Shown here in pieces: positions 24,201 through 57,289 of a DNA stretch of 64,000 nt. Made by a program: the position numbers and the translations under genes. Location: assembly GCA_009869945.1 (NCBI GenBank), contig WIXG01000249.1:53509-117508 (forward strand), given 5' to 3'. The notes under the pieces were generated by a model that searched no databases, was not told the DNA's origin, and saw only the letters and a list, made by a program, of their open reading frames with translations. Source of the DNA: Mesaphorura yosii (taxonomy: Eukaryota; Arthropoda; Collembola; Poduromorpha; Tullbergiidae). Position 1 is the stretch's first letter; every line of letters starts with the position of its first letter.

Positions 24201-27200
24201 ACTTGCTGCTTTTTTCGGATTGCTGTCGGTGGCAAAGTAAACTGACCGAGAAGGCCCATCAATTATATTGCCAGGAGCTGGGCTGGTGCTGGTGGACCGG
24301 TGTTTGAATACCTTTTCAGAATCAGAATCTGACTGGCTGTTTTATCTTAATGGTCGTTACCTGTCTTGTCCACAGGTCTTCAATGAGGAACAGATTCTGA
24401 TGGCCTTCATGCACGGTCACGGACTGCAATCGTCCACCGGTAGCCTCGGCGGCATCGACAACCCCGCGTTGGATCTCACCGGTTCGCATTCCAACATTTC
24501 TTCCGCGTCCGCCATGTACAATGGTAACGGCAGCAAGGCGTCAAGCTACTACTCTTCCGACTCGGCCAACTCGACGTCAAATTCATCACAGTCACAAAGT
24601 CTATCATCGTCAAACACTGATAGCTTGGACACTGTCATCTTTAAAGGGTATGTCACATAGTCGCTTTCGCCATTCGTAGTTCACTATTTGTCACGTCGCG
24701 ACAGAATGCAGAATGTCGTGACAATTTGTTACTAGTCATCTACCGGCTGTTGGCTGACAATGCAGGTGCGTTTTAATCCAATTATAAGGATTAATGCAAT
24801 TCGAATACGGAATTCCTTTCATTTGTCAGAACATTAACGTCTCACGTTTCGCTTTCGCTCAAAAGATGATCAGACAACTGCAAAGATGACGTGCACAGAT
24901 AGACTTAATCGTTTTTAAATCACCTTTGAAAATTTTTTCTCGTTTTTGAGCATGTGGGTCTTTTTATTATTGTGAAATACTTTCATGATGAACGACACAA
25001 ATGTTTCATGAATCATGATTGACACGCAACGTCTCTTGGAAACGCACAAATCTCTTTTGACATGACCAAGCCATTGCATTGCATTGCGTGGGATTGATCT
25101 TTCTGTGTGCAATTATTGCTGCACATGTAAATATTAATCTTCGCGTATGCTTTGAATTCACAATGAGACAAACGCGCACAAGACATGTTTATGAAACTGC
25201 GACGGAACACGTCGAAAATTAATTCCTCGCTCATTGTGCCGCTACAATTTTACATGTCAAAATACTGTCATCTTTAAAATGCAATACATTTATAATTAAC
25301 AAAGGACCGGGCAGTGAAAACGTGATTGGTGGTCAGCATTCATCATAATTCTCATCATTAATAAAATGCTGCTACGTGTATTGTCAATTGAGCTGCCTTT
25401 GCATCCCAGTCGTTCATTGTCCAATTGTCCGTCCAGTTGATTATTAACGCTGTAGAATGAATGAAGTCTAATTCTTTGTTTGTATTGCAGACCACCTTCC
25501 GTTGGATCCATTCGAGATTGGCAACACCAGCCAAGAGCTTCCATGGAGGCGAGCATGGAACACCAGCAACACATCCCATTAGATTATAATCACAGTCGAA
25601 GTAATAGCCGTACGAGTGAAAACAATGTGTTTCGTGACACCACCGGTGGGACGATGGCGGCGGCTTACGATGGACAAGCTTATCAGATCCCTCCGTCTCA
25701 GGTAACCGTGATCGTAATGATCCCGTGAAATATTATTCATTGACCCGTGTGTGCCCAGTCGGCCACGTGCAGTGCGTGTAAACTTGATCGCGTCTGAACT
25801 TTCCTTAAGAATCAGTGAATCAGTGCAGCTTATTATTATTCCTTGAATCTGAGTCCGGGCAGTGCAGCCAGCCAGCAGGCTTCTCAGTCTTGTGACCTGT
25901 TTGCCCTCTGAATTCAGGATCAAACGAGTTCAGGCGGTCCAGGCAAAAAATTAACCTGGACCCAGACCAAGAGCGGCAGTGCAGTAGTCAACTGTCTTTC
26001 AATAATCCTTTCATGCATAATTTCCTTCATTGTAAACTGTGAATTTGCTTTTGATTAATGCACTGAGCGAAGAATCAAGAAAACTGGTTGAAGTTGATTA
26101 ATTGTTGGCTCAACGCTTGTTTCGTTTCATATGATCGGAGTTGATGTTGATTCTGAATGAATTAAATACCTTCACCTGGCACTCGCGAGTAGAGACTAAA
26201 CGACGATTACTCGCGGCATTGACACGAGTCAAAAGAACAACGTACATTGTAGAATAGTTGTTACAGAAAGCGTGTCTTTATCCTCAGTGAGCGCAAGATC
26301 TGATTTAATTTTGTCTGCTCTTACAGACATCGCCTTATCAACCCCACTACAACTATCCAATGGAGTATCGGCCTGCTCAGCAACACGCTCAACAGCTGCA
26401 TCATCAGCACCAACATCACCAGCAGCAGCAGCCTCCACATAAACAGCTTCCGCTTATTCAGTCCAGCAACTTGAGAAATGGACACAATGCAGCCGCCGCG
26501 GTGTATCACCAGCAGCAATTACAGCACCAACAACAGGGGTTGCTCGGCTCAAACCCGCAATTGCCAACCAAAAGCCCGCTCTTGTCCCAAAAACAATTTT
26601 CATCCACCGATGGCCTCTTGGATAAAGCCAAAGAAGGCAACGGCAAGCAGTTTTCGGCAGCGACTGCTAAAACGTACAACCATATCAAAGATATGATATC
26701 TAGTCGATTCGGGCCCAGCATGAACCAGCAGCACAATAATAAAAACAGTGGTTTAAGTGCCAGTGTTCTAAACAATAATACGAGCTCATATAATGGCGGA
26801 AACGCGCATTCGTACAATGGTTCTATAGACATGACCGACATTGGGCTGCCCAGTACGTCTTATGGAGCTCATCTTCAGAGTGCACCCCAGCATCACCACC
26901 AACAGCATCAGCAGGTAAATGGCCACCATCCATACCACAGCCACAATAGCCCACCGTACTACGCAACGCCACAGCCAATATCGCCCTACAACGGACACCC
27001 AGCTGCGGCTGCAAATGGAAACCAAACGTCAGGCTCGTATCTGAAAAGCCCATCAATGAGTAATGATCGGAAGAATGTGAACACGAGTTTTCGCAAAGCC
27101 ATTCAAAAGAGTACACAGAAATCTAATTTGGTAGAGGATTCCCTGCAAATGAGAACAATTCAAGAGTCCCCTGCTAATTTGAATGCGAACTCCAATTCCA

Positions 27201-30200
27201 TGCAGCAGCAACAGGCAACAATCATTGCCGAGCAGAGGGCTCAGAGAGCTCTCGATAAATTGTTGTGTGATGGGGGAAACGGTTTAGGACCAGCACCAAG
27301 TTCGCAACAGCAGCAATTCAGATCCCATCCCAAGCATCCACCACAGGGAATGTCAGGATTTGAGCCTCAGACTTCACAAAGACAGCCACCACCGTATCCT
27401 GAGAAAAGCGTGCAACATCACCCGCAGCACTCCATTCTCAGAAATCCTGGCACAAACACATTCTCAATTAAACCACCCATCGGGAGTGTATTAACATCCG
27501 ACAATACACCACATTACTCCAAACCTCCAGCGCAGCGCCCGGTTGACGAACCTCCGCCTTTACCAACAACTAAAACCCCGAGCGTGCAAGACGTGCGTGA
27601 AACCGGTGATGGAAGTGCCGCTGAGCCTAAAACGACTGTTGAAGGGCAGAAATTGTCGCCGAACAGTGCAAAAAGTGAACAGTTAAAACAAATGACGAAT
27701 GATTTACAAAATCTGGCCCTGTCAGTTGTTGTGGGCATGAATGGCAATGGAGAAGCGCAGTCGAGTGGTAGTGAAGGTGACATGAAGGGATCTCAGCGTG
27801 TTGGAAGTGGACAGTCGCATGACTCTGGAGTGGGGACAATAAACTCTTGCAAAGCGTCGCCACCACCGGTTCTGTCGAGCGGAGGAAGCGAGCCGTTGCT
27901 CATCGATGGCTTAATTGGTGAACGGCACAAGTTCAGCAATGTGGCTGGGAGCAATTCCTCTGGTGAGTTTTCAGAATTATGAATGAATGACCGGTTTTCT
28001 CTGATTCAGAATATCTAAGCTTAATTTTAATCAAAAACGAAATCAAGTTTGGGTTAAACGTTTAGCACAGACTTGCCTTCAATATAATGTTTCGTTAATG
28101 AACTTTGACCTCCTGTAGGCATTGAGTTGCCGCCAGTTGCGACACAGCGTGTAGAAATCGTAACTCAGTCATAGAACTTGACGATTTGATTTTTATTTAC
28201 GCGTTAGTCACATTATATTCGTCACAGTGTCCGAAATACTTGACCCATGATCCCACGCGTAAAGATTTGGAAAGGCCATTTTACATTCATGAGTACAGAT
28301 CCCAAGGCCAAGAAGTGGCACGGAAGAAGACTCAAAATGCTTTCTTCTTGATTACAGGAAATGATTCTGAATGGGTCGACATTGTTGAACCAGAGATTAA
28401 GCAAATAATCGAGATGCAACGCGGAAACAAGCCAAACACTCCCGGGACAAAGAATCCGTCCGCGAATACGCACCAGCAACAAGATGGCGGCCCCAGTTCA
28501 TCGGGAACACAAATGCAGAAAACGACGCAGTCACCGAAAGCACCAAAGAAATCTGATCTCACTATTCATAGGTACATTTAATTTATTTTATTTTGAATGA
28601 TAAAGCGCGTGAAAGAGTTTGTAGCAAATTAGTCAAGTTCAAGGTTGCCGAAATCGTAACGTTTCCATCACGCATTGCGCCTCAGAAAATAATGCGTGGA
28701 AACTTTTATAAAGCTGAGATCGTGGAAAGACCAGCCAGACCAAAAACTGGCTTGACCTATGTGCAAGAAATCCTGCTACATCTTTCAACGATCCTCAAGT
28801 GGTCATTAATTCATGCTCATTGAGATAATCATGTGATGATCTCTGTTTACAGTAAAAAGTCCAACCACACTGCAGGACCAAGCTCAAGTCATGCTCTTTC
28901 TGCAGCCACAAATACGGGTATGTTTGGTAATTAGTTCTAGACTCCGACTTCCTTACATCATGTATCATGTTCTACTGTGACCTGTGTTATGGATGTGATA
29001 TCGTGCTCATCTTCTGTGTTTGGCGTTGATACAGGTCAACCGAATAATGCGAGCGGGTCAAACAATAATTCCAACACATGGAATGCTACAAGGCCACGAC
29101 TTGAGAAAGCGGCTGCTAAATCTTCCACAATGAATCGAGCTGCTGCCAAAGAATTGACCTTGACTAAATCAGGGAAATTAACAAGAAGTGCGATGAGTAA
29201 GTGAACACGAATAAATGGTATGGAATTTTACGTTGCGAATGAAAACGAATGTTCGTGCACAGATCAAATATTGTACTCACTAAATGATGACACTGGCGAC
29301 ATTACATCGACTACAACGGGCGGATTAGACGAGTCCATGCTGGACGGGGTAACCGAAAATACCTCGGATGATGATGACGATTTGAGTACAACAATTGACA
29401 CGACTGATGCCCATGCTATTAGAAGACAGCTGGAAAGTCTTGAAACAATGTACACTGAAGTGAGTTCCGTTTAATTCGAAATTATGTTCATGATGAATAC
29501 AGGCATGTCAAAAATCTGAATCCCTCTTTTGACAGGTTCTGAAAGTCTTGGGTGGGAAGAAGTTTGGTGGTGCAATGGGGCCTCGCTATTCGGGCACGAA
29601 CGACCTTCGCGGATTGAGGCGTCGGCCGTACGGCAGCATGAGTTCGTTGCCGAGCTCCGTCAGCAGTCGTCCGTTTAAAGAAACGAAGCGAAGATTTGAC
29701 GAGAAAAGAAAAGTAAAAGATATCAAGGTAATGAAGCTGTTTACAATATGCGAGACCTTTTCCACTAACTCTGCCATTTCTACAACACGCAGAGCATTAA
29801 TCGAAGGTTTCAACGACTGGAGTCTCATGTCGTCACCTTAGCCAGAAGTGTTGCCCATTTGTCGAGTGAAATGAGGACGCAGCATTTAATGGTTCAGGTA
29901 TGACAACCAAGTAATATGCAATCACACAATTTCTGTAACTGAATTGAATCGATTTCTCTTCCAGGAAATGGAAAGCATACGAAATGAGCTGAGTCAGTTA
30001 CGGGCTCAAATTATGAAGATGCCTGTTCACAATCCGAACCAGCCTTCTGCTCAAACATATGTGGCTATGGCGCAACAGCAAAGTCAAAAGGTTCTAGGGC
30101 GTCAAGGTGGGCACGTAGTAAATGCAACTGACTGGACATCATTCAGAAACGCGCTTCCGTCCCTCACAAATCCATGCCGTGTTCGAAAACTCACAAAGTT

Positions 30201-32939: not shown

Positions 32940-34347
32940 TTACAGAAATAATTTCCTGAGTCGATCAAATATGCCGTCGCTTTTGAATATTGGAATGTCT
33001 AAGCATGCCGGATCTTCATCCTGACTATTCTTGCGTTTTTCGGGTTTTGATTCTTCTGAAGAAGGCAACAGCATCGACTGTTGAGGACGAGAATTCCACC
33101 ATTTCTCGATATTCTCATATGTCTTTCGTACCTTGGCGTCCCTGTGAGTGGCCAGTTTCTCGCAAAGTGCACACCAGCCTGGCGCTGGTGATCGAATTAC
33201 GGTGTAATCTTCCTTCCACTTGAAATACGCGAGATATTCTTCTTCATGTGTATTCAAGTACAGCAAATAATTTGCGAGATCCTTCGAATTATTAAAGTTT
33301 CTTGCATCAATGAATGAATTCGGTGGCGAAATGCGACTGTAATTAGCGCGTCCATACACAACAGGTATGATGTCGTTATGCAGAGCGTCGAAATACTTCT
33401 CAGTAACGTAGTCGGCACACAAACTGTTCTCAAATGACAAATAGAACTTGTATTTGCTCGCAACATGCTTGTAACAATCTTCACCAGGTGGTGGGCAGGA
33501 GTACGATCCGCAGCTACCATAGATATCTACTTCGATGTATTCGCTAAGTTCTTTTACGAATGCTTCACGATTACTGTGGGTGATACAATTTGAAACGATC
33601 CATGCTACTAACTTTGGTTTTGAAATCAGACTCGTAATTTTGGATTGAGTAAAATAGGAACCGGAGTAGTTGCTGGTCAGCCCCTCGATGTTTCGCAAAT
33701 TATATTGCAAGACACTTCGGCCTGGGATGGGACTACTTCCATCCTTTTGAATAACGACTCCGTACGGATAATACACATCCGAGTCCAGGCGGTAGGTCAA
33801 TGTCCAATTGAAGATATTTGCATATGGTCTAAGGTCCACGAATGTGTTGAAGGGAGACTCCTTATTGAAAAATATCCATGTTTGATCCGGGTGCCGAATG
33901 GACGGAAGTGGTACACTAATAGAAGTTGAAAATGTATCCATCGGTACGAATTAGAAATGAGAATCGCTTCAGTCTGACTTACCTCATAATATCCCTGATA
34001 TGAAACACAACCGCATCGCTCGACATCAAATTCAACTTATCCGTTGTAAATACGCATTGGACAGGGCAGTTGGTAAGTGTGTTTAGCCTTACTCCATAGT
34101 AGTGCAGCTCGTAGCGGCCAAAGAATGGTGTCCAAAGCAAAATTGTTGGCACAGACGAATTGAACCTGGATTTCTTCCATTCTTGGATTGTCAGCGAACT
34201 CAGAAATCGGTTGACAGTAGAGTTGTGCGTGTAGTTCGGAGGACCTCTCAAGTACCAGTCATGGTAGACGGTGTAGATTATGAATAATGCCACTGATAAG
34301 TAAACTAAAGCAACTAAAGCCTGACGCTGACGTCTCCGCGACATCAC
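32940..34347 (-). CDS. Alpha-1,3-fucosyltransferase (GT10 family)
   Basis: Two exons (34347-33983 and 33915-32940, minus strand) encode 446 residues. The enzyme should transfer fucose from GDP-fucose to glycans in the Golgi. The N-terminus is a short basic tail (MMSRRRQRQ) followed by a hydrophobic signal-anchor at about residues 10-28, the type II topology of Golgi glycosyltransferases. A stem with Asn-X-Ser/Thr sites follows. The catalytic C-terminal half contains the GT10 donor-binding region FYLSFENSLCADYVTEKYF followed by IIPVVYG, plus an upstream AWIVSNCITHSNR segment and a CG-type cysteine pair (GSCGSYSC). Invertebrate members include core alpha-1,3 enzymes (FucTA, which makes the HRP epitope) and Lewis-type relatives; I cannot assign this one to either. 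The intron carries clean GTAAGT and ATTAG sites, and the codon spanning it is serine. Confidence 0.93.
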
Positions 34348-39401: not shown

Positions 39402-42367
39402 TTAATTTGAAGCATGTTTCAGCTTGAAAGCTTTCTTCCAAATTTCACAAAGGCAGACTGTCGAATGAAATCGATAAAAGATAGCCAGTGGCATAGAGAA
39501 GTCTATAAATAAAAAAGACAAAAATTACTAAAAGGCTGACGCCTGTGAAATTGAGTGGTCAAAGCATTTCTTTACCCGTAATGATTGTCCATGCCCAAAC
39601 ACCATAAAAGTGCAACTGGTGTGGGTGCGAGTCATTCTTGGATTTTTCCAGCGCATTGATTAACCACATTGCCAAATTGCACACCAGCAAGAACGTGACG
39701 ACTTCGCGGCCCGGCTTTCTTCGCATATGATCAGTCGTCACCACAACTCGCTTGGATGCGTCGAGAATGAAAAGAGTTTGTAGTACAATTTGTACGAGAC
39801 ACATTAAAGGAATTGTAAGGCTTAGTGGATCGAAATGCTGAATGGCGAGATGTTCACCAATTATGCAGAAAACGTTGAACAGAAACGAACCAGATTGTGC
39901 AACTATGAGAAGAATGTTGTCCAGCTCAAGATTCTTCCCTGCCTCGTATCGAAGTTGTCGCATCTGTGAACGTATGCGAATACAGTCTTAAAACTGAGTT
40001 ATAATACAGTCTCAGATTCTCACCAAACACATTCCAAGAAGTACAGCAAAAGTGCAAGAAGTGTACAGCATGAGTTCCGTAATATTAATCACCAGCGTGG
40101 CCAGTTCATGGTATTGATCATGTTTAATCAGCACAAAATTGAGAATAAGGCTCATGATAGTAAACACCAAAATGAAGATGCCTGTAAATAGCCCTTTGTT
40201 GGATCCCGCGCAGTCAACCTGAAGGAGTAACACATTATCCTTTAGAAGATTCGGAATATTAGCAATAGATTAGATCGATCGAATCGTTGAAAATACCGTG
40301 TAATGATGTGGTGATCTCGTATGAGCCAGGTTATGTCTCCTCATTTTACCGGTTTGTCCTTCAATTGACACAGACTCCACAGATCTTCGTTTGTACGAAA
40401 TTCGTTCGATGCGTCGCACCGCCATGTCCTTCCACATTACGAAACAAACAGCAGCGCAGATCAAAGAGTACTCAATTGTGCAAGGGAACAAAAATGGAGA
40501 CGCGTTGTCAACCAGAGAGCCCATGATGTTGTCACGGCGGCATTCGTACATGCTGTGAGGTCCTGTCAGACCACGTCTAACGCGCGTATGAAGAACATCA
40601 TTTGATAGGCCAACCAGTGTCGAGGAGTTGTAGTTGGACGCTTCTGTCGTTGTCTTAAAACCAATGGAGTAGCCACTTGTGGTGGAGGCTCCGGTGACAT
40701 TTTTCGGGTGGTAAAAGTGTACAATTTCATGCTTCGTTTCTTGCACAAGTACATTCAACCAGACAGCCAGATTCGTCCCAATCATGTGCATGAGTCCAAA
40801 CTGTTTGAGCAGGCTGACCTTCGAGATGGAAATTCGTGAATTGAGAAATATGAAATACATTTGCATGAATGTGAACACCATTCGCACAGCAGGTGTGAGT
40901 ACAACTGCTAGATTGTAACACTTCGACTCGTGTCTGAACTCAAAATATTGCCCAAATTCCAGTGCGCTGTAGATCACACTGCCGATTCCAAATGCTGAAA
41001 TCATAAATCCTCCGGTCAAGGCTGTTCAGCTGCCCTTTTCCGTAAATCCTTACCGACAGCTCCTATTCGCAAGTAGAAACTTCCAAAATTTGTGCCCGTA
41101 GAAGCGGGCGGCTCTGAACGTTTCTTTGACAAGGGTTTGGTTTCCACCTTTTCGATATCTTTGCACAATGTGCAAAATCTGGACGCTGAAGGAACGACTC
41201 CATTTTCTCTGTGAATGCAGACCTTTCCTGGAGAGTGTACCATGATTTCTTTACGCTGGTTACGCCCGTGCTTCGGAACTGTTGTGTGTCCATAAACAGT
41301 TCGTTCATCGTCAGAAGACTCGTAGTCGGTTGAAGTGGAAATCTGCCTGTTTCGAGCTAGTTGAGCCACGTCTGGCGTGTGCTGATTATTCTCATCTTTC
41401 AATTCAAAGTTATCAGTTAGAGCATGTTCTCATTCCATTCACGATTAATCTACAACAAACGCTGACCATTCTTTGTAGTGTCTGTAATCTCATCAGCTTG
41501 TCCGGGTTTTCTTCGCAGATTCTTGAATTTTAGCATTTGTCCAAACGAGCAAGCCATAAAGAAAATACTCCCAAAGTACAGATACAGGTAGAAACCCTGC
41601 GTCGAAGTCATTAGGGAATTCAGTAATTAAGCTCATTACGACAGTAAAATTATTCTGGTGACAGTGTTTGAGTTTCAAACCCGGTGATGTTACGTTTGCA
41701 TGCAGTACTAATTGCAATTACGTGACCGTCACAAACGTCGCAATGTGAACGTGAACTTACATCGTAGTACGAAGGAGGGATGTACGTCGAGATTACCTCC
41801 GACATTGGGAATGCGATTCCCAGCACAACAATTAGTTTTGCGTAGAGCGCGGAAACTATGTTTCCAACGCTGGCACTAAAAACGTCCCAGACCCCTAATT
41901 AGTAATGAAACATGCTAGCTCGACAGACTGTAGACAGACAGCCAGATAGAATGCTTCGCGTGTCTCGCTTACTTGCCCTGTTGCCTCCAAAGTTCGGGAT
42001 CATGCACTCGAATCTTTTCCTGCTGCATCTGAATAATTGTAGGGGTTCTGTTTCCAGTTGGAAAAAGATCACCTTCCCCGGCGTTGTTAACTTTGTCTTC
42101 ATCTTCTTCATCAAATTGTACACCAGCTTGTTGTTCCGCCGCAAAGCGGGCCGCTCCGGGGAACAATGGTCCACCTCCAGCCCATCTATCACGACACGAA
42201 GTTGGAGTCATTTGATCATTAATTAATGTGGGGCACGTGGCAGACAATCCGACTTACCCAGGCAGCGATCCGGATCTTAAACGATTTAGAATTCGAACTG
42301 CGGAGTTTCGCCTTCCTTGATTAATCATCGTAACGATCTGGTCGGACCACCTGTTTCTGGTCGACAT
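39402..42367 (-). CDS. Otop: Otopetrin proton channel
   Basis: Nine exons on the minus strand (42367-42258, 42185-41973, 41875-41761, 41596-41467, 41395-41054, 41021-40297, 40218-40024, 39963-39576, 39502-39402) join in phase to 772 residues. Otopetrins are dimeric proton-selective channels with twelve helices; in flies they mediate acid taste. Diagnostic pieces are a first helix with LYAKLIVVLGIAFPMSEVI, then GFYLYLYFGSIFFMACSFG, the repeated otopetrin-type segments GTNLAVWLNVLVQETKHEI and CNLAMWLINALEKSK, and a C-terminal PLAIFYRFHSTVCLCEIW. The N-terminus is a hydrophilic cytosolic region of about 110 residues, and the exon at 41395 adds a long charged loop with Ser/Asp and Cys residues between helices. 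The fourth intron has a weak donor (GTCAGC at 41,466, or GTTTGT just after, same phase), so the protein there is uncertain by one or two residues. Confidence 0.94.
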
Positions 42368-43375: not shown

Positions 43376-44512
43376 CTAATATCGTTGAGATTGCAGCTCA
43401 CTAAAGCCTCCACCGGGGCTCACTTGTTGTGCTTTACCCGGGTTGAAATCAATCGTAAACTGACCACCATTTCCTAAGTCAAAATTGCCGGCGTATGGTC
43501 CCGCAGGCCCAGCTTGCTGGTACGGGTTGTGGGCGGAAAAGCTGCTGCTGGAACCTCGTGGACTATGCGAAGCAACATTGCTGGAATACTGTGGCTGTTG
43601 TGATCCGAAGTTGGATGGTCCGAAATCTTGGAAGCCTCTGAATCTTCCGCCTGAGGAAGGACTGGCGCCGGTCGAGTACTGGACGCCATTGCCACCGTGT
43701 TGACTGTAGTGACCAAGGTTTGATTGCGAGTTGTACGATGGGCCAGCTGGCCGTGGGTAGGCTTGATGAATTGGCTGCGGGGCAGAAGCAGGTGCTGGCG
43801 CGGGAGCGTAGTGAGCCCGTGGCACTGGTGCTGCTGGTCTGTGTTGAGAGCTTGAACCTCTTCCGTTTGCGCCATTCGTATTAATACTGGTGAGGTAGTC
43901 CTCATCCTGGTCCGAATGAGCTGGCACCTGAGGTTGTCTGGGCAAGTGGTCGCCCTCAGCCTGGAAACCGTTTTTTCCAGCAGTATATTTGACGGTTATC
44001 ATTTTCCCATCAGCGCCGGGATAAGAGTAAAATCCGCGGCGAGTTCCATCAGGGTCCACCGTCTCACCCTGCTGCAACCCGTTGTCAGCAGCATAACTGA
44101 AGTTGATTGTGCCGTCATGATTCAGTTGACGGTTATCCTGCAGGATTTGAGCGTAGACTGGTTTCTCAGACAGGTGTGATGGCGAGTAGGACTTGTACGC
44201 TGGCTGATGGTGCACGGGCTGAGGTTGATGATACTGTTGAGGCTGCGTGTACTGCGTGTGGCTTGGCTGACTAGGGTAGCTTCCATCGTCGTGATGTCCA
44301 CCAGAATTGGAATTATGTCCAAAGGACTGACTAGTTGCTTGACGAGGAGACTTGGCTGATTTGGAACTTGGCTTCTGTGCGAACGCGACAGCGATCAGGC
44401 AAGGCACGAGCTACATAAGATGGAAGCAAATCAAATTATTTGACCATCCAAAATTTAATCCTCGTGACTGAATCTGAGAATTACGTACCCACAATATCCG
44501 GAAAAGTGCCAT
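43376..44512 (-). CDS. Cuticle protein with Rebers-Riddiford chitin-binding domain
   Basis: Two exons (44512-44489, only eight codons, and 44410-43376) encode 352 residues. The signal peptide is split by the intron, the classic layout of arthropod cuticle genes; it reads MALFRILW then LVPCLIAVAFA, with cleavage expected before QKPSS. After a His/Gln/Tyr/Ser-rich spacer comes the chitin-binding domain (chitin_bind_4): QLNHDGTINFSYAADNGLQ, then GFYSYPGADGKMITVKYTA and NGFQAEGDHLP, closest to the RR-1 pattern. The remaining 190 or so residues are Gly/Ser/Pro/Tyr/Gln-rich with Ala-Pro repeats (APAPAPASAP), typical of structural, possibly sclerotised matrix. The protein is secreted into the exoskeleton, where aromatic residues of the domain stack on chitin. 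The stop is TAA; a poly(A) signal follows at 43297. Confidence 0.94.
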
Positions 44513-47784: not shown

Positions 47785-49683
47785 TTAGTTCGGTCTCAGC
47801 TCCACCATGATGATTGCAAACGTAAGCATGAGTGAGATCCACTGTGGAAGATAAGGATAAGATATAATTGGAAGTACAATGACCATGATTTTGCAGCAAA
47901 AAATTGTTTCGCCTTACAGCTCCCAGGAATTCCGTTGTAATGACAAAGAATCCGCCCGCACTGATTCCGATATTCTTTCCATACTGAACTGCCATCATTT
48001 CTGGAATGCCAAATGCTTTCGGCTGGCTCGTTTTAACTTTGTAGTAATTCCGGCGCGAGCTCAACCAATCTTCTAAATACTGGGCCTGATTGAAAGTTAG
48101 AGTTTCGCAACAACTTGTGGCTGGCGTAACTTATGCGGCTTACCTTTTTGTTCACCTTGGCCGCAATTCCAACAAAAATTAAAAGCACCGCAAAGTAGAT
48201 GAAGATTTTCAGAAACAACCATATTGATTGCGGGCTTAACATTTTTAGGAAGTAGGTGATGAAGAATGGGAGAGAGCCAAGAGTCAGGGCAAATGTGAGC
48301 AACCCGATTGCCAGGTTCATTTCCTTTACAACATGACGAATTTGGTCAAAATCCTCCAGAATGGTATTCATGTTAATTGTCGTGATGGGAAGATCGTCGT
48401 CGTGGTGCTTGATTACGCGTGTCATGTAAAACGTTGGGCTCGCCAAATTCGAGCAAAATGTCTGTAGAAAGTTGAAGAGGGCGATGGCGGAGAATATGAG
48501 GAGCATATCCCCGGAGCACATGACCAGATTCTCTCCGAAGCAGGACACTGCATGAACGAGTATGAAGACAAGGTTCAGCAGTCGACGGGCTTGTGGTTCA
48601 GGCGCTACAGACACTCGTGTTAGTGGCGCAACCGAGGAACTGATGAGAGCATCAGTCGTGGAGCCCAGCTGCTGTACAGTAGCCGTCGCTATTGTATTAA
48701 TCGAACTATCCGTTGTCGTTTCATTCAAGAAAGCGTCAGTGTCCATTGAAGCCGTTTTATTCTGGGGTGGGAAGAACATGAGAGACCTGCCTTCGTCTCG
48801 CATGGTTTGTATCATGACATTTAGATCATCTTCACTGTTTTCAAGATAAATCGCTAGAGTGGTCAGGTATGAGAATGTGCAGTAGAATCCCCACATGAAG
48901 ATCCAGATCGTGATCTGCCCAAATAACATTCATATGTGATTAAACTTGCCAGACATTAGCATGTTATTCAGACGAATTTCGGAATTTCCTACTTGATATC
49001 GCTGGAAGAAACTGGATCTTCTAATCGCAGCATTTGCTCCTGGTGTAAAATAGGGGCCTTCATTCAGTTTTCGCCGTCCAAATCTCTTCTTTTGTCTCTC
49101 CTGCACCTTATAGAAAAGATTTAGGATCCGAAGGAACTCTTCACTCCGGAACCAGAACGTAATCACAATTGCGCAGTAGTAAAAGAGGAGGGAGAGCTGC
49201 TCAGCAGCGTCAAAATATTCGATGGGATTTCGATCTGTACCGACGACGGGAACAAACACCTTCAAGTCTCGAACGCCTTGAATTCTGGTCAGAGCACCAA
49301 AAAGAATTAAAGTTGCGCAGCAAGCCTGCGTAGAACAAACTGGCGTTAACAATAAATGTTTTGATATGCACTTGGATACTTACCACTTGGATAAAGTTTC
49401 TGTGGACTTGAAACTGGCGTGTTGAGGAATTGAATTTAAACTGAAAGGGACACACCACAACGTAGAATGTTACGCGTAGATACTTTCGAATCAGGCGAAG
49501 TGGTATTGGGGATGAAGTTGAGCCGGACACGGTTCTTAGGTTCGGAGTGGAGTGAGCATTCTTAACTGGTGCAGGTGCTCGGACCCTGGACATCGGCTGC
49601 TGTGATAGATTGCAAATTCCGGCTTTTGAAAGGTCACCGTTTTGTATGATTTCATTTCTCAGAGGGTAATACGTGCCTTCCAT
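47785..49683 (-). CDS. Seven-helix chemoreceptor, gustatory-receptor type (chemoreceptor 2)
   Basis: Five exons (49683-49384, 49325-48993, 48914-48144, 48085-47918, 47841-47785), all split between codons, give 542 residues. Hydrophobic segments include LSLLFYYCAIVITFWF, ITIWIFMWGFYCTFSYLTTL, LVFILVHAVSCFGENLVMC, GDMLLIFSAIALFNFL, AIGLLTFALTLGSLPFFIT, LFLKIFIYFAVLLIFVGIAA, GISAGGFFVITTEF and the last WISLMLTFAIIMVEL. The final short exon holding the last helix is the usual arrangement of arthropod gustatory receptors, and LTFAIIMVEL sits where the Thr-Tyr...Gln-Phe motif belongs. The protein is longer than normal because of a polar N-terminal extension (about 75 residues) and an insert of roughly 80 Thr/Ser-rich residues with N-glycosylation sites between helices. 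The start could instead be an in-frame upstream ATG (49845 at most). Function as a taste-type receptor is inferred from fold; ligand unknown. Confidence 0.78.
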
Positions 49684-49976
49684 TTTGAAGATCATGAATG
49701 TGACTAATCGGACCAAGTTTGCGGATTGAACTTTGAAGAATTGGGTAAAATATGAACACGATGTACAAGTAAATAATGTTTCAAAATATGTTAGGGAATT
49801 CATAATTTTATTAACCACAAAGTAAATGCTCAGGTTTAGCAACAATTTTGCAGGGAGACAGACATCACAAAATGTACAGATGTTTTAGGCAAGGACGCGC
49901 GGTGGTTATTTATAAAGTAAAGTACAAGCGATTGGAAATATTCATTGATCATTCATGCCTGACGATTACCAATCCA

Positions 49977-52838
49977 TCATATCTGAGTGTTCTTCATCCC
50001 CGGTCCCTCTCGACGCAGACTCGCTTTTCGCGATGACGACAAACCCTCCAGCTTGAATTTCACTGGCTTAAATTCCACGGCGGTCAATCCTGCCTGTTCC
50101 CCATGATCCACGGGTGTTAGTTGTGTTCGAACACGTGTTCCCATGTAGTCCGAATCTGCACCTTTACCAACATGGACTGGAAGGTGGATGAGGTTCAAGT
50201 CTGAGTCCAAAGTTGCCAAAATCCGAGGACGAATGGCAGTCACTAAGAACATTAGCATGTAATGCTTCCTTTGGGAAAGCAGTCCATCCAGATGAAAACT
50301 TGCGAATGTTGCAATCAAGAGTCCACCAAGAGCCGCTGGAGAATGTAAATGTCCATAGGAGTTAAATGGGTTTAAAGTTAAAGTTCCTTGACCCAGATGC
50401 AACAGTCCACGTAAGAAATTCACCACGAATACTAGGCCCGAGATCTTTGCGGATTCCACAGCACATCTCTTCAGCAAGTACAAAGCGTTTCGGTTGCGAG
50501 TCCCAGCTCCAATGATCCCAATCGCAAATACAGCGCACAGGACGACATGGTGGTCGTCGTCGTGTAGCAATTTCTGTAGGATGCCTAATATCTCTGCTTC
50601 GGGATTTTAGACGTAAAGCAGACCCAAGGCCAAGGGTATGGCACGACGAATAAATTTGCATACTAAGCCACACAGCTTCAAAAATTCCACCAACAGACGT
50701 GTTGACATTTGAGTTCTAAGCTGATCTCCCATGTTTACAATGGCAATTCCAATTGTTGTGAAGGCCTTCTTGTATCTGTTCGCGGTGTTATCAATGCTAT
50801 CAAGTTTTGCGCACGCGTCCATAAGCATAAGGTTGTGGATCACATCAACGTTGCCAGATCCAGCGTATGCAAATATTTCCACAAGCTTAGCCACAAGATG
50901 TCCTCGAGTGGTTCCAAGTTTTGACAAGTTCTCTATATCTGGCTCCGCTCCATTTCTTGTTTCCAAATAGCAAATCCCCAAGCCTGTCACACTTGGCCAA
51001 TTGTTATCCATGTCCAAGTCTTCCTTATTTGACAAAGCCAGACCATTCTGAATGGAAGTAGATGCTGTAGATGATCCTGCTCCCATATGTATTAGCCCTC
51101 TTGCCAAATTAGCAACATTTAAGACCCATAGTGAAAATTCGTCATTTTGAGTTGAGACTGGATGGCTGAGTGGAGGCAGATCTTGCCTGTGAGAACCGGC
51201 AAAGGCGACCGCAGAAGCCAATATCAATCCCAATTGTATGGCTTTTGAGTCGGGACGTGGGAAGCTGCAGAGAAATTGAAAGAACTTATCATCAGGAAGG
51301 TCCAAGATGTTGATGCTGCTAATTCCAAGTGCAAACAATGCTCCTCCAATAGCAAACTCATTAGCTGTTTACGAGGTTAGTTCCTCGTATTTTTGCAGGT
51401 AATTTTCAGGAGGGTCCCAGAGCAAGCTCAGCCCGATCAGAGCTACTGCACCAAATAATTCTTCTTCTTTGTTCTTCTCACAAATGAGTCGAATTGTTGC
51501 CGGATCGATAGTGTTTCCCGAACTGAAGCCACAAGCGGAATAGGCAAGCCCACAAGTAAAGCACCTGCTCAGCGAATAGTCTCCAGCTTGAAATACGTCC
51601 TTTACACGATGTGGTCCCGACAAACCGAATTCTTTCAAGCAAAGTTTGAGCAACTTGCTAAAGTATCCGTTGTTGACTAAGTCTTTTCTGGGTTGACCCA
51701 ATAATTCGCTTAATTGGGAAACTTTCACAGTTGAGAACGGCCTCGATGGAGTCTGCAAATTATCTCGTCTTAATATTGTGAAGAAGTAAGAAACTACATA
51801 ACGTGAAGATGATAAATGGTTGTGTCCACACCCGTTTAGCTTGAAGCATCAACTGTCTACGAAGCATCTCCCGGTTTGAACAATTCATCAAGATGTTCTT
51901 CACCAACTCATGATCTTGCAATTTCAGCGCAAGGTGGCTTGCTTCTACCATGTTTCTGGCTTTAATATGTAGCTTTCCGAGTGCCGTCCAAATTTTATGC
52001 TTGTCTTGCCCTTGTCCTTCAAGGAGCGGTTGACAATTTGGGAGGTAACTGCATATTTTCCTGGCGGATGAAACACTCATATGGCGATTCGCAAGAAGGT
52101 CCAAGTCTTGGATTTCCAATGCCAAATCGCATGCATTAACTTCATGATTTTGCTCAATGAAGTACGCCATGATCTGACTTGACATATGGCTTAGATTGTG
52201 ATTCAATTGTTTAACAAATTCGGAACTTTCCTCTCTGAGAAAATTATTTAGAAGAAAGTGTTGCTTATGCTTGAAATATTTTATTGTTTTGTAAAATATT
52301 AATAATACCTTCCCATTCTCATTCCGATCTCTTTTGTTAGCTGAACCACGTAATCAAATCCCCAATCTCTAATATCAGTTTTGTTCATCGCGGCCATCGA
52401 CGAACTTAGCATCTTGTATGCTAAACACTCGCCAGATCCCTTTGCCATTGAGAGGAATGAAATGATGTCAGCACAGATGCGTCTTGCATCTCCATTTTCG
52501 CCATCTTCTACCTCAACTTCCCTATGGATGGACTTTAGCTCTTGAACGTATGAATCCAACTCCGGCATCGCCAGCAAAACGCGACCGGTTCTCATGATAA
52601 AGGTTTGTAACAATGTTCTCATCTGGCGCAGAGATGAACCAAGCTCTGAACGCGCCCGTATAATCAGCGCTTCTAGTTGAACCTTCACATGAAACAGCTC
52701 GAATAAATAATGGAGCAATAACCTCATTTCATGCACATGGAAGATGAGATATCTTACCTTCAAGACACCCAGTGAGTCAACTACACCCATGGCTTCAATA
52801 TCCATGTTGAATTCGGATAAAGATGAAATGAATGCCAT
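49977..52838 (-). pseudogene. PSMD2-like: Divergent 26S proteasome Rpn1/PSMD2 paralogue with two in-frame stops
   Basis: Four exons (52838-52758, 52682-52309, 52234-51832, 51752-49977) would encode about 875 residues, close to the roughly 900 of Rpn1, the ubiquitin-receptor scaffold of the 19S base. Homology runs the whole length: the N-terminal helical part (RRICADIISFLSMAKGSGE, MAYFIEQNHEVNACDLALEI), the centre (GAVALIGLSLLWDPPENYL), the PC-repeat toroid (IGGALFALGISSI, VEIFAYAGSGNVDVIHNLM, RRAIPLALGLLYV, CAVFAIGIIGAGTRN) and the C-terminal LGQGTLTLNPFNSYG and HGEQAGLTAVEFKPV. Sequence is far more diverged than expected for the essential, highly conserved orthologue, so this is a paralogue. 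Two TAA codons (51371-51369 and 50609-50607) interrupt the last exon in frame; reading continues in the same phase with homology on both sides, and the second replaces the serine of the conserved VSNP segment. Introns are kept, so it is not a retrocopy. No splice pair removes either stop without deleting conserved sequence. Confidence 0.85.
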
Positions 52839-55290: not shown

Positions 55291-57289
55291 TTAAATTTTT
55301 AGTAAGGCCGAACCTTCCAGTTTTCCTCTGTACTTAGCGAGCATTGGATCGACTTCACTCTCGATGAATTCTGCAACCTGAAACAGTGAAATTATCTCTC
55401 ATTACAATATGGCCTTTGTCTTTCGTTGCCTTTTCATATTGCTGTTTGGTTGACAGATTTCTTTGTCTCACCTGTTCTGGAGCCCTTCCGACGAAAGTTG
55501 TGGGATCCATTAACCTGTCTAGTTTTCCCCAAATCGGCTTGAAGTAATCACATCGTTTAACTCTGTCAATCAAGTCGTTGTCCTTCCCTTCAACTTTTAC
55601 TACACGACCAGCTTCATGTGATAAGACGCGAATCTGTTCATGACATTCCTGACGGCTGCCCCCAATTTCAACCATTGCCATTATGATGTTTTCAGTCGCC
55701 ATAAATGGGAGTTCACTCATCAAGTGCTTTTTGATAATTTCTGGGTAAACCACCATTCCTTCGAATATGTTTTGAAGTGTGCACAAAATAGCGTCGGCTG
55801 TCAGGAAGACTTCAGATAATGTAATGCGACGGTTTGCTGAGTCGTCTAAGGTTCGTTCGAGCCACTGAACGGAAGCAGTTGCATTCGCGTTTTGCTGAAG
55901 CGTCATCAAGTGTCTTGCCAATGAGCACACCTGCAAAATTAAGCCAGAGTCATCGTAATTTCACGTAAAGCCGTTCTTGGACAGCTTGATCTATGTGCTT
56001 ACTCTTTCACTCCTCATTGGATTTCGCTTGTAAGCCATGGCACTGGATCCAATCTGGTCCTTCTCAAATGGTTCTTCAAGCTCCTTCATGTTTGCAAGTA
56101 ATCGAATGTCGCTACAAATCTGAAAATGGTGGTCATGTCATGTTTAGAATTCGAATTTCGAATTTTTGGAATGCAGCCAAGTGCATTTTCAAGACATGCC
56201 CGGAACTAAATGCGTACCTTATGAGCACTTGCTCCTAAACCCGCAACTGCCGCGACCACATCAACGTCAACACGTCGACTGTACGTTTGGCCAGTAACAG
56301 CATACGCCTTTTCGAATCCTGCGTATTTTGTAATCAACACATCCAATTGTTTAACTTTCCCTTGATCCCGGTGAAATAGTTCCATGAAACTAGCTTGCGT
56401 CCCGGTCGTTCCTTTCGCTCCACGTGCGCGAAGATTGTGTCTCATGCGATCAATATTCTCTTCGTCAAATAGTAAATCTTGAAGCCAAAGGCAGGCACGT
56501 TTCCCAACTGTTGTTGGTTGAGCAGGTCTAAAAGAAAACGAGAAGTTGATCACTCTTCATTGGGTGGCAGCGGGTCAGAATATTTCACTTACTGTAAATG
56601 AGTGAAACCCAATGTTGGTAGGTCTTTCTTATCCAGGGCGAACTTTCGTAATCGATCAATACACCTGGCAATCTTCGGTAGCAAAAGGTCCAACCCGTCG
56701 CGAATAACGATAAGATCCTAAAACGAGCGTTTCATTTATCCTCGAGTCGTACTCAGCCAGGACCTGAATCCCGAATAATGTTTAAGTCGTATGTTCAACT
56801 CACTGCATTATCAGTCACGTAACATGAAGTTGCACCCAAGTGAATGATGGGCGCCGCTTTCGGACACACCAACCCAAAAGTGTGAACATGCGCCATGACA
56901 TCATGTCGACGGACCTTCTCTTCCTCAGCAGCAACGGCGAAGTTGATGTTAAAAATGTTGGCAGCCATTTCCCGTAGCTGCTCTTCGTTGATTTCGGGTA
57001 GGCCTAGCTCCTGCATTTGCATAGAAAGACCATTTGGAAGGCAATCATAATTGAGTGAGTTTGTGACTTGTTCATTGACTGTTGACTCCGGAAAGCTTAC
57101 CATTTCAGCCTTTGCCAGGATGTACCATAATTTCCTCCATGTCGAGAATTTCTTAAGATCGCTAAAATTGTAAAGCATCTCTTGCGAAGCATAGCGCGTG
57201 GAGAGTGCGGATCTGTACTTCGCTTCCTCATACTTGGGCTTCGCGTCCTCCTCTCCAGGAAATGTGCTCAGAAGATTCGTGGCAGCCAT
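55291..57289 (-). CDS. ADSL: Adenylosuccinate lyase
   Basis: Seven exons (57289-57101, 57010-56804, 56717-56593, 56527-56218, 56119-56003, 55930-55472, 55377-55291) join in phase to 497 residues, matching the 480-490 typical of animals. The cytosolic homotetramer cleaves SAICAR to AICAR and adenylosuccinate to AMP, each releasing fumarate, in de novo purine synthesis and the purine nucleotide cycle. Conserved blocks are [12 protein letters not shown] and [14 protein letters not shown] near the N-terminus (substrate-binding His), GTTGTQASF with the following catalytic-region [11 protein letters not shown], and the fumarase/lyase signature [15 protein letters not shown], which carries the mobile loop serine acting as catalytic acid or base. 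The C-terminal [20 protein letters not shown] is also typical. All expected catalytic segments are intact. Confidence 0.97.

Follow-up and report, generated by a model that had tools for sequence, protein, structure and literature searches.

The window, the whole 64,000-nucleotide stretch of Mesaphorura yosii DNA analysed here, contains a four-exon relative of Rpn1/PSMD2 at 52838-49977 on the minus strand, with three introns in the gene model. The Rpn1-like copy is 877 codons long with two in-frame TAA codons included, and a single frame runs across all four exons save these TAA at codons 414 and 668, ending at TGA 49979-49977. An earlier note on this DNA had proposed an intron-bearing Rpn1/PSMD2-like gene here, and the frame-keeping model together with the Pfam and PDB matches confirms it; both TAA codons were also found directly where the note had placed them, in one frame. 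The features of the copy are listed below.

52758..52838, minus strand: exon 1 in the frame-keeping model, starting at ATG 52838; predicted, and the weakest part of the model
52309..52682, minus strand: exon 2, N-terminal domain (RPN1_RPN2_N, 5.9e-11), with a phase-2 intron at its end as in the matching canonical exon
51832..52234, minus strand: exon 3, N-terminal domain (RPN1_RPN2_N, 1.5e-19), with a phase-0 intron at its end as in the matching canonical exon
49977..51752, minus strand: exon 4, read in the frame of the earlier note as far as TGA 49979-49977 and covering the C-terminal region as well as proteasome/cyclosome repeats (PDB Rpn1/PSMD2, 4e-16 and 9.1e-34)
51369..51371, minus strand: the in-frame TAA at codon 414, the first of the two, within an insertion of two codons between repeats
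50607..50609, minus strand: the in-frame TAA at codon 668, the second of the two, at the position of the VSNP serine that the canonical and human proteins share
50041..50067, minus strand: stretch with a probable frameshift, by eye directly before the FVILRK-like motif (about 50048-50043) and at about 50067 in a frameshift-aware alignment
49966..50043, minus strand: C-terminal tail in the shifted frame (frame 2 translation), FVVIAKSESASRGTGDEEHSDMMDW, with its stop at 49968-49966
49807..49812, minus strand: AATAAA, a possible polyadenylation signal, seen directly in the sequence

Among the splice variants tried, eight stay in frame, and the same two stops lie in all of them; four of the eight retain the first intron, which weakens the support for exon 1. 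The start at ATG 52838 is predicted from an in-frame TAA immediately 5' of it. The introns of the copy are 74-79 nt long with donor scores of 6-8 (of 9), and the six introns modelled in total measure 74-103 nt.

Four neighbouring open frames in the window gave clear Pfam matches, and the cuticle protein among them points to an arthropod; a COX1 search gave no match.

32940-33941, minus strand: fucosyltransferase (family 10)
40270-41019, minus strand: otopetrin
43376-44407, minus strand: insect-type cuticle protein
55355-55936, minus strand: adenylosuccinate lyase C-terminus

Directly downstream of the copy, a 298-aa open frame at 48033-48929 (minus strand) has several hydrophobic stretches and may resemble an arthropod gustatory-type receptor; it matched nothing in Pfam at E up to 0.01 and nothing in the PDB. 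Searches of Pfam and the PDB at E up to 0.01 also found nothing for a 540-aa open frame at 26360-27982 (plus strand) that is rich in glutamine, histidine, serine and proline.

The Pfam family RPN1_RPN2_N matches exons 3 and 2 of the copy at 1.5e-19 and 5.9e-11, exceeding the curated cut-off. Against the PDB, the block between the stops finds PSMD2 at 4e-16 and the last block finds Rpn1/PSMD2 at 9.1e-34, and in a protein search exon 4 is 33% and 40% identical to the animal's own canonical Rpn1. Judged from these matches, the homology of the copy to Rpn1/PSMD2 is beyond chance. The copy is also nearer to Rpn1 than to Rpn2, both in the last block (PDB Rpn1 chains from 9.1e-34, Rpn2 chains from 0.034) and in exon 3 (RPN1_RPN2_N at 1.5e-19 against RPN2_N at 0.0018). 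The stretch from the start of exon 4 to the first TAA has no significant match in Pfam or the PDB when searched alone, and its placement is based on alignment with the animal's own canonical protein. The PC_rep profile barely meets its cut-off in the last block (22.5 bits against 21) and gives no match in the block between the stops, the same block that aligns with PSMD2 at 4e-16; in the genome search, one of the 12 PC_rep matches listed lies on contig C249, at 19.1 bits and below the cut-off. RPN1_C (PF18051) is not among the four families listed for the last block of the copy at E up to 1, and a genome search with E up to 10 detected it at contig C458 only. The C-termini of Rpn1 chains in the PDB do align with the copy, and the probable frameshift falls within the RPN1_C part.

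The assembly (93,006,257 bases in 1127 contigs) holds one canonical Rpn1, on contig C458, with 2625 modelled bases and no premature stop; the model omits an N-terminal exon upstream of L019:4500, and one genome match counting stops extends past the modelled exons. In the C-terminal part of the canonical protein, 387 of 544 aligned residues are identical to human PSMD2. The copy and this canonical 19S base subunit have the same N-terminal RPN1 domain, the same proteasome/cyclosome repeat match and segment order, and two in-phase introns, whereas the copy is 27-41% identical by block and is without most of a lysine- and glutamate-rich loop between repeats, and RPN1_C is detected at C458 only. 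The two shared introns are in phases 2 and 0 at alignment columns 152/150 and 287/289, at most two columns apart, and the copy therefore arose by DNA duplication. The parent's third intron is missing from the copy, and the copy's first intron matches no modelled parental position. A retrocopy (processed pseudogene) was ruled out by the three introns in the model, two of them common to the parent. A DNA search of the assembly returned the copy itself and no other, and protein searches found no third Rpn1 copy, these counts being lower bounds; besides the copy and the canonical gene, the protein searches gave a weak match, probably Rpn2, on C42, a contig with other proteasome/cyclosome repeats. 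Of the 147 sites at which canonical Rpn1 and human PSMD2 have different residues, 35 carry the canonical residue in the copy and 20 the human one (p = 0.03), weakly suggesting that the duplication postdates the split from vertebrates. The copy is probably of the duplicated pseudogene type, with a parent elsewhere that has no stops in its modelled exons.

Translation from the ATG would stop after 413 codons, yielding the N-terminal domain but little of the repeat region beyond its start. Both TAA codons had been described as lying within conserved sequence; this stands for the second, which is at a serine of the canonical and human proteins, but the first is not at a conserved residue because it lies within a two-residue insertion relative to both. 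A third lesion, a frame change near the C-terminus, is probable from the translations. After LEG (about 50043), the listed frame reads LSSSRKASLRR and the neighbouring frame reads FVVIAKSESAS, where the canonical and human proteins have FVILRKNP. The shifted frame scores 23 and the listed frame 4. Across the rest of the gene, 1674 out-of-frame placements gave a maximum of 16, and 1 of 20000 shuffles reached 23, for a motif that is short and whose R-K pair is also present in the listed frame. These scores indicate that the claim of no frameshift in the remaining frame is probably wrong. The frameshift-aware alignment to the canonical protein accepted no shift at penalties of 30, 20 and 15. At a penalty of 12 it accepted this C-terminal shift, placed about eight codons further upstream, and two compensating shifts near intron 2; ten shifts were accepted at 10 and more at 8 and 6, penalties at which the alignment no longer discriminates. 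Those two shifts, accepted at penalties of 12 or less, would span the intron 2 boundary at about 52318-52221 (minus strand) and compensate each other against the canonical frame; a slid splice donor would account for the pair just as well, and it may also be due to chance.

Protein identity to the canonical Rpn1 is 0.274 in the block before the first stop (365 aligned codons), 0.331 between the stops (245) and 0.407 after the second (199). Compared with the canonical gene, identity at codon positions 1/2/3 is 0.395/0.559/0.337 in the N-terminal block, 0.453/0.596/0.253 in the middle block and 0.538/0.653/0.312 in the C-terminal block. Position 2 exceeds position 3 in every block (p = 2.6e-9, 3.3e-14 and 1.8e-11, respectively), a contrast whose size is partly compositional, as position-3 identity is also depressed by the high third-position GC of the parent (0.68, compared with 0.452 in the copy and a total GC of 0.419 in the window). 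The copy retains 148 of 366 residues that the canonical and human proteins share, compared with 35 of 147 canonical residues at sites where the two differ (p = 2e-4 overall). By block, this test gives p = 0.008 in the middle and p = 0.015 at the C-terminus; it is not significant in the N-terminal block (19/59 versus 2/12, p = 0.24), where the human stretch spans just 71 positions. On these comparisons, all three blocks, those past the stops included, show old coding constraint. From the codon-position pattern and the retention of conserved residues, we thus infer that the sequence past both stops was selected as protein during most of the history of the copy.

Two stable folds are predicted in exon 4, one at 50609-50507 (minus strand), starting shortly after the second TAA, and a stronger one at 50786-50684 (minus strand). 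In a coarse grid of exon 4, none of 70 windows reaches z = -2.35, and the only two at -2 or below (51392 and 50624) contain one TAA each. In a fine grid, 5 of 185 windows, which overlap and are not independent, reach -2.35: 50786 (-3.35), 50615, 50609, 51389 and 51029. The windows at 50615, 50609 and 51389 contain a TAA, and that at 50786 has no stop inside.

We put the probability at about 85% that the copy is an Rpn1 paralogue that arose by duplication, was constrained for a long time and has recently been disabled; this is the simplest account, and an ordinary kind of thing. It could instead still work in part of the population, the stops being segregating null alleles or errors of assembly. 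The lesion count is low (two or three in 877 codons), with the start, the splice sites and most of the frame kept, as this explanation would have it, and just one copy was recovered when the assembly was searched with the DNA, leaving no second haplotype for comparison. However, two TAA codons and a probable frame change stand on one haplotype, and the canonical Rpn1 has no premature stop in 2625 modelled bases, so false stops are not general in the assembly as far as this one-gene control goes. It is also unusual for substitution errors to create TAA twice in one gene, and we regard this explanation as improbable. Still less credible is a functional truncated product of 413 codons carrying the N-terminal domain. 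The first block is open and its splice sites keep the frame, but such a product would lack most of the repeats, and the blocks past the stops are closer to the canonical protein (0.331 and 0.407) than the first block (0.274) and have the same codon-position pattern, so the truncation appears recent.

Removal of both stops as introns is equally hard to believe. In-phase GT..AG pairs of 40-250 nt do exist inside exon 4, 26 spanning the first TAA and 36 spanning the second; a GTGAG donor at 51481 serves three of the 26, which would remove 39, 47 or 80 codons, and another is a 57-nt pair at 51372-51316 with the donor GTAAAC. But this 57-nt pair is shorter than the six modelled introns (74-103 nt) and would cost 19 codons of repeat, none of the 36 pairs at the second TAA has a GTAAG or GTGAG donor, and a donor score of 6 of 9, that of the weakest introns of the copy itself, is reached by 2 of 26 and 4 of 36 pairs. 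The homologous codons lost would number 18-83 at the first TAA and 16-82 at the second, and the canonical gene has no intron at the stop positions. The earlier statement that no splice pair removes the stops without deleting homologous residues is therefore borne out with a reservation, in that pairs exist, all costing 16-83 homologous codons and none convincing. Readthrough of both TAA codons into a full-length protein is very unlikely as well. The old constraint does extend past both stops, and the available text of one study names 35 double readthrough candidates in Anopheles (PMC5100048). The best evidence for readthrough comes from the predicted folds: a hairpin just after the second TAA has z = -2.35, matched by 2 of 200 shuffles (z = -2.63 in a second run), a window that begins 18 bases upstream of the first TAA reaches z = -2.56, and three of the five fine-grid windows at -2.35 or below contain a TAA. 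Directly after the first TAA, however, no unusual structure is found (z = 0.73, with 155 of 200 shuffles folding as well, and 0.65 in the second run), and a stronger fold lies away from both stops (z = -3.35 at 50786), indicating that structure is not confined to the stops. Both stops are a TAA followed by A, which is a tight stop context, and neither stop has a leaky context. The usual readthrough stop is TGA, according to the same available text (PMC5100048). In addition, the stops lie inside the protein and not at its end, and the probable C-terminal frame change would be left uncorrected.

The earlier note had offered recent loss of function, readthrough and variation between individuals as options. 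Recent loss is the best supported of these, because two stops and a probable third lesion lie in blocks with former selection, and readthrough is poorly supported. On this reading of a recently disabled paralogue, DNA duplication of Rpn1/PSMD2 would have produced an intron-bearing paralogue, not a retrotransposed one, which would then have diverged for a long time under protein-level constraint. Its function would have been lost recently through the two TAA codons and probably the frame change near the C-terminus, in an order and at a date that we can only infer, and the full-length protein would no longer be made. Assuming a transition weight of 2, one unit of neutral divergence is expected to create roughly 102 stop gains; two stops then correspond to a neutral divergence of about 0.02, and three lesions with assumed indel rates of 0.05-0.15 per substitution correspond to 0.0075-0.015, rough figures drawn from two or three events. 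The neutral divergence estimated from the stops (about 2%) is far below the divergence of the copy from the canonical gene. At the same assumed indel rates of 0.05-0.15 per substitution, the probability of at most one frameshift among three lesions is 0.51-0.16, and such an outcome is therefore not unusual.

Like duplicated (non-processed) pseudogenes in general, the copy is an intron-bearing paralogue that carries its own stops and, probably, a frameshift and has a parent free of premature stops, but it appears to have had long coding constraint before its death, and its parent is just 27-41% identical. In Drosophila, duplicated 20S and 19S proteasome subunits are expressed in the testis, according to the available text of a review citing Belote and Zhong 2009 (PMC12650242). 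The copy resembles them in being a second proteasome subunit gene of an arthropod that has diverged from the first, but the Drosophila subunits are expressed in testis and the Rpn1-like copy is broken. By analogy with the Drosophila testis 19S duplicates, it would probably once have acted as an Rpn1-like scaffold in some proteasomes or cells, perhaps in a special proteasome. A former second Rpn1 scaffold of this kind agrees with the long constraint seen in all blocks, and the earlier suggestion of a lineage-specific proteasome variant fits a diverged former gene. The further idea that the lineage has a second, deeply diverged Rpn1 scaffold of a special proteasome, one that still functions in some individuals or via readthrough, or that died so recently that sister species still use it, is rather unlikely in our view. 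A thin search of the open-access literature, in the parts of the texts that were available, found no description of an alternative form of Rpn1. Gene duplication and loss are common, and the interest of this locus lies in an Rpn1 paralogue that seems to have been constrained until it was 27-41% identical to its parent and then died. Working orthologues in relatives, if there are any, would represent an alternative form of the proteasome scaffold that acts as a ubiquitin and UBL receptor.
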